Origin: Flavisolibacter tropicus
GTDB taxonomy: Bacteria; Bacteroidota; Bacteroidia; Chitinophagales; Chitinophagaceae
Direction of reading: 5' to 3'
Assembly (NCBI RefSeq): GCF_001644645.1
Contig: NZ_CP011390.1
Location: forward strand, 4,274,001-4,338,000
DNA: 64,000 nt
The notes below the pieces were generated by a model, which saw only the letters and a list, made by a program, of their open reading frames with translations, was not told the DNA's origin and ran no database searches. A program made the translations under genes and the position numbers. Of the stretch, positions 53-12,344 are shown in pieces. Within the stretch, counting starts at the first letter, position 1. Each line of letters begins with the position of its first letter.

Positions 53-991
53 TTAAGGTTTCCGGAAGTATTTTTTAATGATAATATCCTGGAAGGGATC
101 GGGGTTAGTTTCCGGTAATCCATGGCCAGCATTGGTAAAAAGGAATAAGTCTTTTTTGGGTGCAACTACTTTATTGAAATAATCTTTTGTAACGGAGGAA
201 TTGGTATTATAATCTTTTGCACCAGCAAAAAAATAGACAGGACAATTAATAGTTGGCAGGCTTTCAAAACGATTGATGTCGCTTGATCGGGACCAGACAT
301 CGAACCAGGTAACTGCCCATGCCTCCACAAAACTTTTTCTCAAGCTAAGACGCACTAGTTTTTGCCCGTCATGTTTAAACAGCCATTTCCGGTGATAATA
401 TAATTGCTCCGCATTTTCAAAAGGGATCTTCACCTGTGCCAATTCTTTGCGGGCTTTTTTACCCATAGTTTCCTTGAGCATAGCCAGCGAAATACTATCG
501 CTTCTGAATTGGTCAATCACCGGGCTAATGGCTATATAGGCATACAGCAACTCGGGGTATTTATCGGCTATATAAAAGCCTAATCCTGACCCCCAGGAAT
601 ACCCCGCCAGGTAAAGCTTTGGTTTTTGAAACTTGTGCAGTAAAGAATCTATGAGATCGTGTGTATCATTATAAAACAAGGGGAGTGTTAATGGCTGTGG
701 TGATTTATTGAGCTTGAGTGTTTCACCTGTTTCCCGCTGATCCCATTGAATCACTACAAAATACTGTTGCAGCTTACTGCTGATGCGATCGTTTTTTTGC
801 AACAGGGAACTACCCGGTCCCCCATGCAAAAAAAGAAGAATCGGTTTTGAATCATCTTTACCCTTTATCTTAATGTATTGCTTAATGCTGCCTATAGTAA
901 CGATCTGATTGGTATCAATAGGCTGTTGACTACGCGCCTGGATAGTAATAAAGGTTGCCAACAAAAAGAGTTTCAGATAGACAGTCGACAT
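53..991 (-). CDS. Secreted alpha/beta hydrolase, proline iminopeptidase-like
   Basis: The 312-residue protein starts with a hydrophobic signal segment (residues 5-20) and is probably exported. It shows HGGPG at residues 56-60, typical of the prolyl aminopeptidase branch of alpha/beta hydrolases. The nucleophile elbow is GYSWG with Ser132, and likely triad partners are Asp260 (GAKDY) and His290 (NAGHG). The family removes N-terminal residues such as proline from peptides, but the substrate cannot be told from sequence. It is a single gene, divergent from the lipoprotein gene at 1169. The family call is firm and the substrate is open. Confidence 0.85.
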   Translation of the reverse strand: MSTVYLKLFLLATFITIQARSQQPIDTNQIVTIGSIKQYIKIKGKDDSKPILLFLHGGPGSSLLQKNDRISSKLQQYFVVIQWDQRETGETLKLNKSPQPLTLPLFYNDTHDLIDSLLHKFQKPKLYLAGYSWGSGLGFYIADKYPELLYAYIAISPVIDQFRSDSISLAMLKETMGKKARKELAQVKIPFENAEQLYYHRKWLFKHDGQKLVRLSLRKSFVEAWAVTWFDVWSRSSDINRFESLPTINCPVYFFAGAKDYNTNSSVTKDYFNKVVAPKKDLFLFTNAGHGLPETNPDPFQDIIIKKYFRKP

Positions 992-1138
992 GAATCAACA
1001 ATTAAGTTAATGTAATTTACTAAACCAGAACAAATTTTTGATAAAGCGCTACAGGAATCAGCTTTAGAGATTAAGCACTTGTATATTGTACTTTTCATTA
1101 GCCTTATTGCATGGTATTGTTTTATGAAAGCCACTTAA

Positions 1139-1146
1139 TATATTTG
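1139..1146 (+). promoter_or_regulatory. Bacteroidota-type -7 promoter box
   Basis: The octamer TATATTTG fits the TAnnTTTG -7 consensus read by the Bacteroidota housekeeping sigma factor. It lies 22 bases before the ATG at 1169, giving a short 5' leader. No clear -33 TTG element was found at the usual distance. Confidence 0.45.
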
Positions 1147-1168
1147 TTTAACCATTCTAACTGCTCTT

Positions 1169-2104
1169 ATGAAACGCGCTTTTTCTGTTTTATTGCTTCT
1201 TATTTCTTGTACTGTTTTATTATCCAACTGTAAAAAAGATAAAGAGGATATTAATACTGATGAAGTACGGCTCCAAGCTGTTGAAACAAAGCAAAGTAAC
1301 GGAGACATACACAAGCTCTTTTTTGATTATGATGCCAACGGCCGAATAATTAAAATAAGATCAGGCAGAAATAATGAAACACCAACCACTAACTTTATTA
1401 TTACGTATTCAGGTAACGAGATATTGATACCCGTTACTGTCTCGGATGATGAATTAAATACCATAAAAGACACCATACGGCTATTGCTGAATGCTGACCA
1501 ACAAGTAATTAAAAGAATGTATCATGGTTTTCATGAGTTTAAGGCACCCACTTTCACCCCCCAACGTACTAACATCTACGATACCACCACATACTCATAT
1601 GATGCGGCTGGACTGGTAAAACAAGAGACTCACGGCGGCTTAGATACTTCATGGTATAATCCAGGTGTAGAAACAATTATGGTATCGCGGACAGCGGGAT
1701 TTACGAATTATTCTATAAAGGACGGTAATATCATAAGCACTAAAAAAGAAGTAACGTCTTCAGGTTACGCCAAACAAGGGGGAATTGTGAGTACGGGCAA
1801 AAGCAGCAACGAGACCACTCACGCATTTGAGTATGCAAAAGCCTATCCCAATAAAATAGATTTTAAGAATGCAGCTATTTTAAATGAGTTACAGCTGGTC
1901 TTTCCACCAATAAATAAGAATCTGCGTAATGTACCCGAAAAGATATTGGTTACTGATATAACGAAAAATGGTAATGGAAACATTACTTCATCAAATAGTT
2001 TTACCATTAATCAGGAATTGAGCTACAATAAGTATGGCTTCGTTAATATACGATTTGATCCAGCATCACCTACGTTGAAGACAACTTACGTTTATAACAA
2101 ATAA
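1169..2104 (+). CDS. Lipoprotein with YD-like repeats, function unknown
   Basis: The 311-residue protein has a lipoprotein signal with lipobox LLSNC (Cys21), followed by a charged KKDKED linker. Two stretches, FDYDANGRI near residue 51 and YSYDAAGLV near 144, resemble the short repeats of Bacteroidota cell-surface DUF4595/YD-type proteins. It probably sits in the outer membrane or faces the periplasm. It stands alone, with a TAnnTTTG box just upstream. The lipoprotein call is secure; the function is not known. Confidence 0.8.
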   Translation: MKRAFSVLLLLISCTVLLSNCKKDKEDINTDEVRLQAVETKQSNGDIHKLFFDYDANGRIIKIRSGRNNETPTTNFIITYSGNEILIPVTVSDDELNTIKDTIRLLLNADQQVIKRMYHGFHEFKAPTFTPQRTNIYDTTTYSYDAAGLVKQETHGGLDTSWYNPGVETIMVSRTAGFTNYSIKDGNIISTKKEVTSSGYAKQGGIVSTGKSSNETTHAFEYAKAYPNKIDFKNAAILNELQLVFPPINKNLRNVPEKILVTDITKNGNGNITSSNSFTINQELSYNKYGFVNIRFDPASPTLKTTYVYNK

Positions 2105-9654: not shown

Positions 9655-11322
9655 CTAATACGCCTTCTCATGCACGCTCTTCACCGCGCGACCGGAAGGG
9701 TCATTCATTTTTTTGAACGCTTCATCCCATTCTAACGCAATAGCTGTACTACAAGCTACAGAAGGTTCTGATGGTACACATCGTGCGGCTTCATCACCGG
9801 GGAATAGTTCACTGAAAATAGTGCGGTAATAGTATTCCTCTTTACTTCGTGGCGTATTGATAGGGAAGCGGTAGGCTGCGTTTTGCAACTGTTCATCCGT
9901 TACTTGCTCGCTCGTGATCTTTTTCAACGTATCGATCCAGCTATAGCCTACACCATCAGAGAATTGCTCTTTCTGACGCCAGGCTACTTCAGCCGGCAGG
10001 TAATCCTCAAAAGCTTTACGCAATACCCATTTTTCAATCTTGCCGTTGCCACTCATCTTGTCTTTAGGGTTAATGCGCATAGCTACATCCATAAACTCTT
10101 TGTCTAAGAACGGTACACGACCTTCCACGCCCCAGGCGGCTAATGATTTGTTGGCACGCAGGCAATCGTACAAGTGCAGCTTGCCCAGTTTGCGTACCGT
10201 CTCTTCATGAAAGGCTTTCGGGTCTGGTGCTTTATGGAAGTACAGGTAGCCGCCAAACAATTCATCAGATCCTTCTCCAGTCAATACCATCTTCACGCCC
10301 ATAGATTTGATCACACGGGCTAATAAGTACATAGGAGTGGAGGCGCGAATGGTAGTAACATCGTAGGTCTCTATGTGATGGATCACATCGCGCAGGGCAT
10401 CCAATCCTTCTTGTATAGTAAAGTTCACCTCGTGATGTACAGTACCAATATGGTCAGCTACTTTGCGGGCAGCAACAAGATCGGGTGAGTCTTTCAATCC
10501 TACAGCAAACGAGTGCAGCTGTGGCCACCAGGCATCTTTCAGGTCTTCTGTTTCTACACGGCGTGCAGCATATTTTTTAGCAATGGCGGAAATGATGGAA
10601 GAATCTAGTCCGCCAGATAATAACACACCATACGGTACGTCGGACATCAGCTGTCTGTGTACAGCTTCTTCCAGCGCTTTCTTGAGTGCTATTATATCGG
10701 TAGTGTTGTCTTTTACTGCATCATATTCTGTCCACTCGCGCTTGTACCATTTCTTTAATTCCTGTCCTTCTTTGCTATAGAGATAGTGGCCGGGCAAAAA
10801 CTCTTGTATCTTTTTACACACGCCAACCAAGGCTTTCAATTCAGAGGCTACATAGAAAGAACCCCATTCATCCCAGCCCATGTAGAGAGGAATGATGCCC
10901 ATATGATCGCGGGCAATAAAGTAGGCGTCGTTCTCCTGATCGTATAGTGCAAAGGCAAAGATGCCGTTTAGGTCTTCTAAAAACTGTACACCTTTCTGGC
11001 GATAGAGCGCTAAGATCACTTCGCAGTCGGAGTGGGTTAAAAACTCGTATGGTTCCTGCAGGTTTTTCTCCAGATCGCGATGGTTATAGATCTCGCCATT
11101 AACAGCCAATGCCAGTTTGCCATCGCTGCTAAATAGGGGTTGCTTACCAGAAGTAGGATCTACAATGGCCAGGCGCTCGTGCACCAGGATCGATTTGTCG
11201 CACATAAATATGCCGGACCAATCGGGGCCGCGGTGACGTTGCTTGCGCGACATGTGCAGGGCCTGTGACCGCAGTTCTTCTGCCGGTTTCTTTAGATCAA
11301 ATACGCCTACAATTCCACACAT
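9655..11322 (-). CDS. asnB: Asparagine synthetase B, glutamine-hydrolysing
   Basis: The 555-residue enzyme makes asparagine from aspartate, glutamine and ATP in the cytoplasm. It begins MCGIVGVFD, with Cys2 as the amidotransferase nucleophile after Met removal. The class II glutaminase domain covers about residues 2-190 (HRGPDWSG, NGEIYNH). The synthetase domain follows, with the PP-loop SGGLDSS near residue 235 and GEGSDELFGGY near 345. Length equals that of E. coli AsnB. The gene is preceded by an Asn-rich leader and an attenuator, so its expression is probably tuned to charged tRNA-Asn. It is a single-gene unit. Confidence 0.97.
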   Translation of the reverse strand: MCGIVGVFDLKKPAEELRSQALHMSRKQRHRGPDWSGIFMCDKSILVHERLAIVDPTSGKQPLFSSDGKLALAVNGEIYNHRDLEKNLQEPYEFLTHSDCEVILALYRQKGVQFLEDLNGIFAFALYDQENDAYFIARDHMGIIPLYMGWDEWGSFYVASELKALVGVCKKIQEFLPGHYLYSKEGQELKKWYKREWTEYDAVKDNTTDIIALKKALEEAVHRQLMSDVPYGVLLSGGLDSSIISAIAKKYAARRVETEDLKDAWWPQLHSFAVGLKDSPDLVAARKVADHIGTVHHEVNFTIQEGLDALRDVIHHIETYDVTTIRASTPMYLLARVIKSMGVKMVLTGEGSDELFGGYLYFHKAPDPKAFHEETVRKLGKLHLYDCLRANKSLAAWGVEGRVPFLDKEFMDVAMRINPKDKMSGNGKIEKWVLRKAFEDYLPAEVAWRQKEQFSDGVGYSWIDTLKKITSEQVTDEQLQNAAYRFPINTPRSKEEYYYRTIFSELFPGDEAARCVPSEPSVACSTAIALEWDEAFKKMNDPSGRAVKSVHEKAY

Positions 11323-11347
11323 AGTTTTTAGTTGTTTTATACGTTAA

Positions 11348-11378
11348 ATAAAAAAGCCCCGCTTTGCTAAGCGGGGCT
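11348..11378 (-). terminator. Attenuator terminator in the asnB leader
   Basis: On the minus strand a perfect 10-bp stem, AGCCCCGCTT/AAGCGGGGCT with a four-base loop, is followed by TTTTTTATTT. This is a textbook intrinsic terminator. It lies upstream of asnB, about 25 bases before its ATG, so it can only work as an attenuator of asnB and not as the end of another gene. Confidence 0.9.
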
Positions 11379-11417
11379 GTATATACAAAAAGGTATTACC
11401 TCGCTTAGGTAAGCAGG
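11367..11417 (-). promoter_or_regulatory. Alternative antiterminator fold of the asnB attenuator
   Basis: Three segments compete on the minus strand. Segment 1 (CCTGCTT, 11411-11417) pairs with segment 2 (AAGCGAGG, 11399-11406) with one bulged G. Segment 2 with its 5' flank (CTAAGCGAGG, 11399-11408) also pairs with segment 3 (CCCCGCTTAG, 11367-11376), nine of ten bases. Segment 3 is the 5' arm of the terminator. A ribosome stalled on the Asn codons would cover segment 1 and free segment 2 to block the terminator. One finishing at the stop codon would cover segment 2 and let the terminator form. Confidence 0.8.
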
Positions 11418-11467
11418 GAATTATTATTGTTATTATTATTGATAATATGGCTGATTGTTCTGATCAC
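11405..11467 (-). CDS. Asparagine-rich leader peptide of asnB
   Basis: A 20-residue frame starting with GTG encodes MIRTISHII, then seven consecutive Asn (AAT AAT AAT AAC AAT AAT AAT), then SLLT and TAA. The run of codons for the very amino acid made by the downstream enzyme is the hallmark of a ribosome-stalling leader peptide. The stop codon overlaps the second pairing segment of the attenuator. No ATG is available in this frame, so GTG is the likely start. A near-match promoter box lies eight bases upstream. Confidence 0.8.
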   Translation of the reverse strand: MIRTISHIINNNNNNNSLLT

Positions 11468-11474
11468 TGTAAAA

Positions 11475-11482
11475 CGAATATA
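11475..11482 (-). promoter_or_regulatory. Possible -7 promoter box for the asnB leader
   Basis: On the minus strand TATATTCG matches TAnnTTTG at all but one position. It would start transcription within a few bases of the leader GTG, giving an almost leaderless leader-peptide mRNA. The mismatch and lack of a clear -33 box keep confidence low. Confidence 0.3.
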
Positions 11483-11717: not shown

Positions 11718-12344
11718 CTACTTCCTCTCCTTCAACACCATATCAATCGTTATGGCCGTGGCTACAATGTTGACTTTGTTCTGATCTTCAGCATATTCGG
11801 AAATGATGCTTACATGATATTTGTCCGCAGTTGTAAATAATTCTTTAGCAATGCCTGCCCATTTTTTATTGATAAAGCCAATAGCATGACCATTAGTATC
11901 TGAAATGCCAAAGTTCCATGCCTTCCAGTCGCCATTGATCTCGGCGATCTGCCCGCCATCGGCATTTAAGATTTGAAAACGTGGTTTGAGCAGTTTGAAC
12001 TTTTGATTGATATATCCCGAGACATTGCCTTCGGCATCTAAGATGGTGATCTTAGACATCCAAAACGTCCAGCCACGTTTGATGGTTACCAATACGTCTT
12101 CGTTATTGTCTATGATCTCGAGTGTAAAGGGAAACATCGCCTTGTTTAAAAACAAGCGTAGGAATTTGTGCCAAGCCGATACATGCTGTACAATGCGCCC
12201 TACCTGGGTACCGTAATTATCATATACTTTATACTCGTTGTGAAACTTGAGAAAGCCTACTTTCTCATCAATGAAGTATTCATTGCTTTCAAAAAAAGCA
12301 GGAAAGAAGAGCGACTTAGGTTTTGATAACACCTCGGTTAACAT
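11718..12344 (-). CDS. LURP-one / phospholipid scramblase-like protein
   Basis: The 208-residue protein lacks a signal peptide. It consists of repeated beta-strand hairpins with DxxGxxxGxI-type turns: DAEGNVSGYINQ, NADGGQIAEING and DTNGHAIGFINK. This is the pattern of the Tubby-C-like/LURP-one fold shared by phospholipid scramblases and plant LURP1 proteins. Length fits. Bacterial members have no established biochemical role, though membrane association is usual. It lies 64 bp downstream of the response regulator stop on the same strand, so co-transcription is possible. Confidence 0.8.
   Translation of the reverse strand: MLTEVLSKPKSLFFPAFFESNEYFIDEKVGFLKFHNEYKVYDNYGTQVGRIVQHVSAWHKFLRLFLNKAMFPFTLEIIDNNEDVLVTIKRGWTFWMSKITILDAEGNVSGYINQKFKLLKPRFQILNADGGQIAEINGDWKAWNFGISDTNGHAIGFINKKWAGIAKELFTTADKYHVSIISEYAEDQNKVNIVATAITIDMVLKERK

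Follow-up and report, generated by a model that had tools for sequence, protein, structure and literature searches.

The question raised by this locus is whether a short frame rich in asparagine codons, standing just ahead of the asparagine synthetase gene asnB, lets ribosomes set the transcription of that gene according to the supply of charged tRNA-Asn. The DNA analyzed is a stretch of 64 kb from Flavisolibacter tropicus, called the window here. An initial annotation had read the element as an Asn-codon attenuator of asnB, and our analysis supports this prediction, puts it in numbers and widens it to asnA. We give a probability of about 0.92 to the reading that the element is a ribosome-mediated transcription attenuator, which senses charged tRNA-Asn and controls asnB.

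The gene asnB (9655..11322, minus strand, with its ATG at 11322) encodes a glutamine-hydrolysing asparagine synthetase B of 555 aa with the Pfam domains Asn_synthase and GATase_7; its NF006949 score (947.3 bits, cut-off 499) identifies the product as a true asparagine synthetase B. Upstream, on the same strand, we found the annotated frame of 20 codons (VIRTISHIINNNNNNNSLLT*, 11467-11405) with a GTG start, a TAA stop and seven consecutive Asn codons (11420..11440), which are the proposed sensor. Asn thus accounts for 7/20 codons, and such a cluster of codons for the amino acid made by the downstream product is characteristic of leader-peptide attenuators. As had been noted, the stop codon (11407-11405) lies within segment 2 (CTAAGCGAGG, 11408-11399), the antiterminator strand, and segment 2 is complementary at nine of ten positions to segment 3 (CCCCGCTTAG, 11367-11376), the duplex having -14.8 kcal/mol. 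Segment 3 is also the 5' arm of an intrinsic terminator hairpin (segments 3 and 4, 11355..11378, -18.6 kcal/mol), detected by a terminator scan together with its T-run (11346..11354). The hairpin is placed between leader and asnB, as in leader-peptide attenuators; its perfect 10-bp stem agrees with the annotation, while the distance from stem end to ATG is 32 nt, and not the 25 or so bases given before. Segment 1 (CCCTGCTT, 11411..11418) forms a weak hairpin with segment 2 (about -5.1 kcal/mol) and is also able to pair with the 3' arm of the terminator, this 1:4 pairing being present in the minimum-energy fold. Segments 1-2 (11418-11399) and the terminator core (11376-11357) are identical at 16/20 positions, a value reached by 0/20,000 mononucleotide shuffles of the 41-nt spacer, which suggests that the attenuator originated by duplication of one hairpin.

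A putative -7 promoter box of the Bacteroidota TAnnTTTG type, with one mismatch, was detected upstream of the leader (TATATTCG, 11475..11482). Counterpart boxes exist in two other genomes of the genus (G011 and G008), so that in all three same-genus leaders the box stands 4-7 nt upstream of the start codon. The -7 box is given as spanning -12 to -5 in Flavobacterium psychrophilum (PMC9723704); with this span, transcription would start at about 11470, 3 nt upstream of the leader start codon, and the predicted 5' UTRs would measure 3 nt in the window, 0 in G011 and 2 in G008. Such lengths would fall in a rare class for Bacteroidota by the figures that PMC9723704 (leaderless mRNAs, 5.5%) and PMC7366714 (5' UTR under 10 nt, about 3.7%) provide. 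Further upstream of the asnB promoter there is a gene for a scramblase-like protein (11718-12344, minus strand; PF03803, E 1e-23). Elsewhere in the window, two terminator-like hairpins (at about 17.3-17.5 kb and 54.7-55.0 kb) have a common stem, AGCACTCC/GGAGTGCT, which is possibly a recurrent terminator or repeat.

In the proposed mechanism, transcription would begin just upstream of the leader frame. When asparagine is plentiful, a ribosome would pass the Asn codons and reach the stop codon, covering segment 2, and the terminator (3:4) would then form ahead of asnB. When asparagine is short, the ribosome would stall on the Asn run with its front edge just short of segment 2; the free segment 2 would pair with segment 3 as the antiterminator, and RNA polymerase would continue into asnB.

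A chance origin of these parts had been judged unlikely, and our tests agree. The 64-kb window contains a single instance of the pattern of seven Asn codons and its dinucleotide shuffles contain none (0/100), the segment 2/3 complementarity is equalled by 1/500 dinucleotide shuffles of the spacer, and the fold of the leader RNA (z = -3.4) is as good in 1/200 shuffles. A loose scan of both window strands returned this leader as the sole Asn-rich short frame with a downstream terminator; the other 19 amino acids combined gave 29 hits, one of which (Ile) is the asnB leader frame itself. The complementarity is unexceptional in G011 and in three Bacteroidales leaders (L181, L182 and L183), where 53-95 of 500 shuffles matched it.

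The layout recurs in relatives. The same-genus set comprised 18 genomes, with AsnB in 8 and readable upstream DNA in 7. An Asn leader with terminator precedes asnB in three of these seven, namely the window, G011 (VLNNNVNNNNNNIHYR) and G008 (MTSINQNNNNQNRLH), and the other four are without an Asn leader. Between the window and G008 the stop codon changes from TAA to TGA, turning an A-U pair into G-C, and the partner base in the terminator has changed with it, a compensatory exchange read by eye. No AsnA was found in this set of 18, which includes incomplete genomes. Three same-genus loci without an Asn leader, L007 (G016), L008 (G010) and L009 (G012), show a strong hairpin instead (GATGCTTGTCCC..GGGCAAGCAT, with an energy of about -16 to -19 kcal/mol and a T-rich tract after it). 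This hairpin begins 8-9 nt past a TATATT[TC]G box and may be a remnant or another type of control.

Beyond the genus, an Asn leader with terminator precedes ten Bacteroidales asnB genes. Named genomes gave at least 574 relatives, and within the best 80 of these, leaders were found in L035 (the same as G008), L036, L037 and L041; L076, also in this set, has only 7 nt of upstream DNA. Across the whole analysis, L012 and L178, with contigs that end early, and G974, whose contig also ends early, were left out. The family of the L041 genome has AsnB in 9/16 genomes, with the leader in seven, absent from one and incomplete upstream DNA in one. A covariance model (R1) made from these seven leaders was run on 393 Bacteroidales genomes and gave hits in 28: two were training genomes, three had new asnB leaders (L181-L183), one an asnA leader (L202) and two had His leaders, while the hits in the other 20 were not recognisable as leaders. 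The His-rich leaders (MTNITLHHGHHHS in L185 and MIYTTTHHHHSPDE in L196, both Bacteroidales and both with terminators) precede genes whose first 100 codons match Pfam HisG, a positive check of the R1 search. In an even sample of Bacteroidales, AsnB is present in 68/295 genomes and the leader in 3/67 examined. Upstream scans reached 350-400 nt from the start of most asnA and asnB genes, so that leaders at a greater distance would escape them; they found the leader in 0/18 other Chitinophagales asnB and in 0/29 asnB loci read in the rest of the phylum sample (12 of 42 AsnB genomes not read upstream).

Similar leaders stand before asnA, which encodes an asparagine synthetase non-homologous to the asnB product. 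In L202 (Bacteroidales) the leader MALFNNNNINLNNNCNDRLLQRGGYY, or a version with two earlier codons, precedes an AsnA gene (TIGR00669, 403 bits, cut-off 292.8). AsnA is present in 13/296 genomes of the phylum sample and 3/98 of the relatives sample; two of these 16 upstream regions (G126 and G220) have Asn leaders, and the 14 outside the G126/G220 family have none. Within that family, 33/125 genomes contain AsnA, and an Asn leader with terminator was found in 26 of the 33, the seven without one being L288-L294. Four asnA starts in the analysis (L213, L215, L220 and L221) were placed by a fixed offset. The total is 40 Asn-rich leaders with terminator, 13 before asnB, in this genus and some Bacteroidales, and 27 before asnA, 26 of them from one family and one from Bacteroidales.

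According to the initial annotation, related asnB genes without Asn runs would refute an attenuator. Such genes make up four of the seven in the genus and most of the asnB examined elsewhere. Where the leader is present it goes with asparagine synthetase genes, and on this ground we read these absences as sporadic presence and not as refutation; leader presence in asnB genes is sporadic. An alignment of upstream regions had also been expected to display conserved Asn runs and covarying stems. The Asn runs do recur in relatives, but covariation is thin because the pairing columns are nearly invariant within groups. At most one compensatory cell was obtained, a number reached by 63-65 of 500 shuffles, and there was none for the 2:3 pairing in the asnB group nor for the asnA terminator; with so little variation inside groups, covariation was dropped as proof of pairing.

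Leaders of different groups have a common layout and a weak resemblance in sequence. R1 retrieves the window at E = 0.04, L202 at E = 2e-4 and the asnA-family leaders at E 0.01 to over 1, often by the 3' half only, so these scores point to no more than a weak likeness between groups. In a FastTree phylogeny of 162 distinct AsnB proteins (L181 left out), many tips without leader lie between the clades of the genus leaders and those of the Bacteroidales leaders, and the inner nodes have weak support. Within the limits of that support, a single ancestral leader inherited by all asnB genes is disfavoured by the distance between these clades, and independent gain looks likelier than repeated loss. 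A fuller scenario is possible, though we hold it somewhat doubtful: Asn-sensing attenuators would have arisen several times in Bacteroidota on two non-homologous synthetases, and the genus leader would be translated from an mRNA with little or no 5' UTR, the first ribosome loading at the 5' end in tight timing with RNA polymerase. In L166 a divergent gene for an Lrp/AsnC-family regulator (976-1446, minus strand; PF01037, profile run on L166) lies directly upstream of asnB, and a similar divergent sequence was seen by eye in L165 and L167-L169 (Chitinophagales). Other lineages may thus control asnB by a protein.

The distance between sensor and antiterminator is consistent with a ribosome acting as the switch. 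The core antiterminator pairing starts 5-18 nt past the last Asn codon (median 12), within 8-18 nt in 39/40 leaders, although relatedness sorts these into about five groups and they do not count as 40 separate observations. The first paired base falls within 8-18 nt in 35/40 leaders, compared with 21% of mononucleotide-shuffled spacers, in a count where the choice of the last Asn was limited by hand for eight named leaders. This spacing is close to the stretch that a ribosome occupies beyond its codon, for which PMC4833913 gives approximately 12 nt.

Folds with ribosome masking were computed for nine leaders. With a stalled ribosome and transcription stopped where segment 3 ends, the probability of the antiterminator is 0.97 in the window and 0.69-0.98 in the others; with the ribosome masking the stop codon, that of the terminator is 0.94-1.00. 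In this computation, for which a fold comparison had been suggested with the annotation, the antiterminator strand is free when the ribosome stands at the sensor codons and covered when it stands at the stop. The comparison also gave results of the opposite kind. If transcription stops after segment 3, 5/9 leaders form the antiterminator even with no ribosome present (0.80-0.97), and once the RNA is complete, a stalled ribosome does not keep the terminator from winning in G011 (mostly), L182, L298 and L202, nor in the window and G008 when the stall is at the last Asn codons. The folds alone are therefore no proof of a switch, and timing must decide. The geometry had been equated with that of the trp and his attenuators, including a 1:2 hairpin. 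The spacing and the stall and stop folds behave in this way, and the hairpin exists, but the equality fails for the no-translation state of the window because the 1:2 pairing is weak: without a ribosome the completed window RNA prefers 2:3 (0.91), whereas the completed RNAs of the eight other leaders form the terminator (0.90-1.00). Termination without translation is thus unsupported in the window.

The Asn run could be viewed as an (AAT)n microsatellite that arose by chance in a leader without translation, beside an ordinary terminator. The repeat is AT-rich and the leader is absent from most asnB genes examined, yet AAC, CAG, TAT and other triplets interrupt the repeat in relatives and one frame still stays Asn-rich, which holds partly by construction as the frame was picked by its Asn content. 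The exchange of amino acids in the search also speaks against chance. A short amino-acid-rich frame with terminator was found in 239 distinct asnA and asnB upstream regions 36 times for Asn, 3 for Arg, 2 each for Ile and Pro and 0-1 for all the rest; identical regions had been removed, but many are close relatives and some were found via the leader (such as L181, L202 and the L041 family), so that the set is enriched for leader-bearing relatives and the contrast among amino acids counts, not 36/239 as a frequency. The scan misses the true leaders L036, L211, L303 and L310, and 530 kb of flanking sequence, scanned for Asn in the same way, gave one weak hit. The amino-acid swap and the control flanks led us to reject the microsatellite, which we consider scarcely credible.

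Antitermination might instead depend on specific nascent-peptide arrest, or on a small-molecule or protein ligand, and not on Asn codons being decoded slowly. The likeness in sequence among the leaders of one family fits this; between groups, however, the peptides share little except Asn richness. Moreover, the frame of the asnA-family leaders continues beyond the antiterminator strand, and its tail past the Asn run is in frame 1 in 15 and in frame 0 in 9 of the 24 placed, whereas the RNA motif GGAAGGC persists (the offsets of L314 and L315, where the terminator arm was picked, were not used). A varying tail frame with a constant GGAAGGC fits codons that matter in the Asn run and RNA that matters after it, an argument limited by the choice of the asnA leaders by their Asn frame. 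We rate arrest or a ligand as very unlikely. The hairpin might also be no more than a terminator, or a 5' stabiliser, that belongs to the upstream region, with a separate asnB promoter after it; the strong hairpins without Asn leader in L007-L009 would speak for this. The interval between terminator and ATG has only 32 nt, though, and no promoter was found there, a TAnnTTTG box being absent at up to one mismatch; in the three leader-bearing genus members the box sits upstream of the leader. This makes a promoter after the hairpin extremely improbable, and attenuation by a ribosome on the Asn codons is the reading that we prefer.

In a covariance-model search, no Rfam family reached its gathering score for the window or for 21 related loci. 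All 28 hits at a loose threshold were under that score, so a known family was rejected; the best was anti-hemB (E 3.8e-05, 29 of 49.5 bits), and the Phe, Thr and Trp leader models reached 15-18 bits where their cut-offs require 41-55. Searches of open-access PMC papers, judged by title or start of abstract, found none on an Asn-codon attenuator of either synthetase gene. A comparative attenuator study by Lopatovskaya and others (2010), cited in PMC4833913, may describe one. If the prediction is true, asparagine is one more amino acid that leader-peptide attenuation senses, and the mechanism would be demonstrated in Bacteroidota, with mRNAs without Shine-Dalgarno sequences, as PMC9723704 states for flavobacteria. 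Similar layouts before the unrelated asnA and asnB, with weak likeness and a near-constant ribosome-sized distance, make a natural test set for gain, loss and timing. An Asn-responsive genetic part may also be possible.

Ribosome-mediated attenuators are known for the his, trp, leu, thr, phe and ilv operons. The window element resembles them in its frame with codons for the product amino acid, its three competing pairings, its terminator before the gene and a spacing set by the ribosome, and differs in sensing, as predicted, Asn, in its layout directly before asnB or asnA and in the weak 1:2 hairpin of the window. Asn T-boxes of Firmicutes stand before asnA and asnS, and AsnC controls asnA in E. 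coli. In both systems asparagine synthesis follows the Asn supply, as proposed for the window element, but the T-box reads tRNA directly without a ribosome and AsnC is a protein regulator. Within the Bacteroidetes, a Bacteroid-trp RNA (RF01692) is listed in PMC2864571, and PMC9723704 describes hints of attenuation by leader peptides ahead of amino-acid operons in Flavobacterium psychrophilum; unlike the window element, the examples given in those passages do not concern Asn, asnA or asnB. The two Bacteroidales his leaders come from the same phylum and, like the asnB element, combine a codon-rich leader with a terminator, the codons being those of His instead of Asn.
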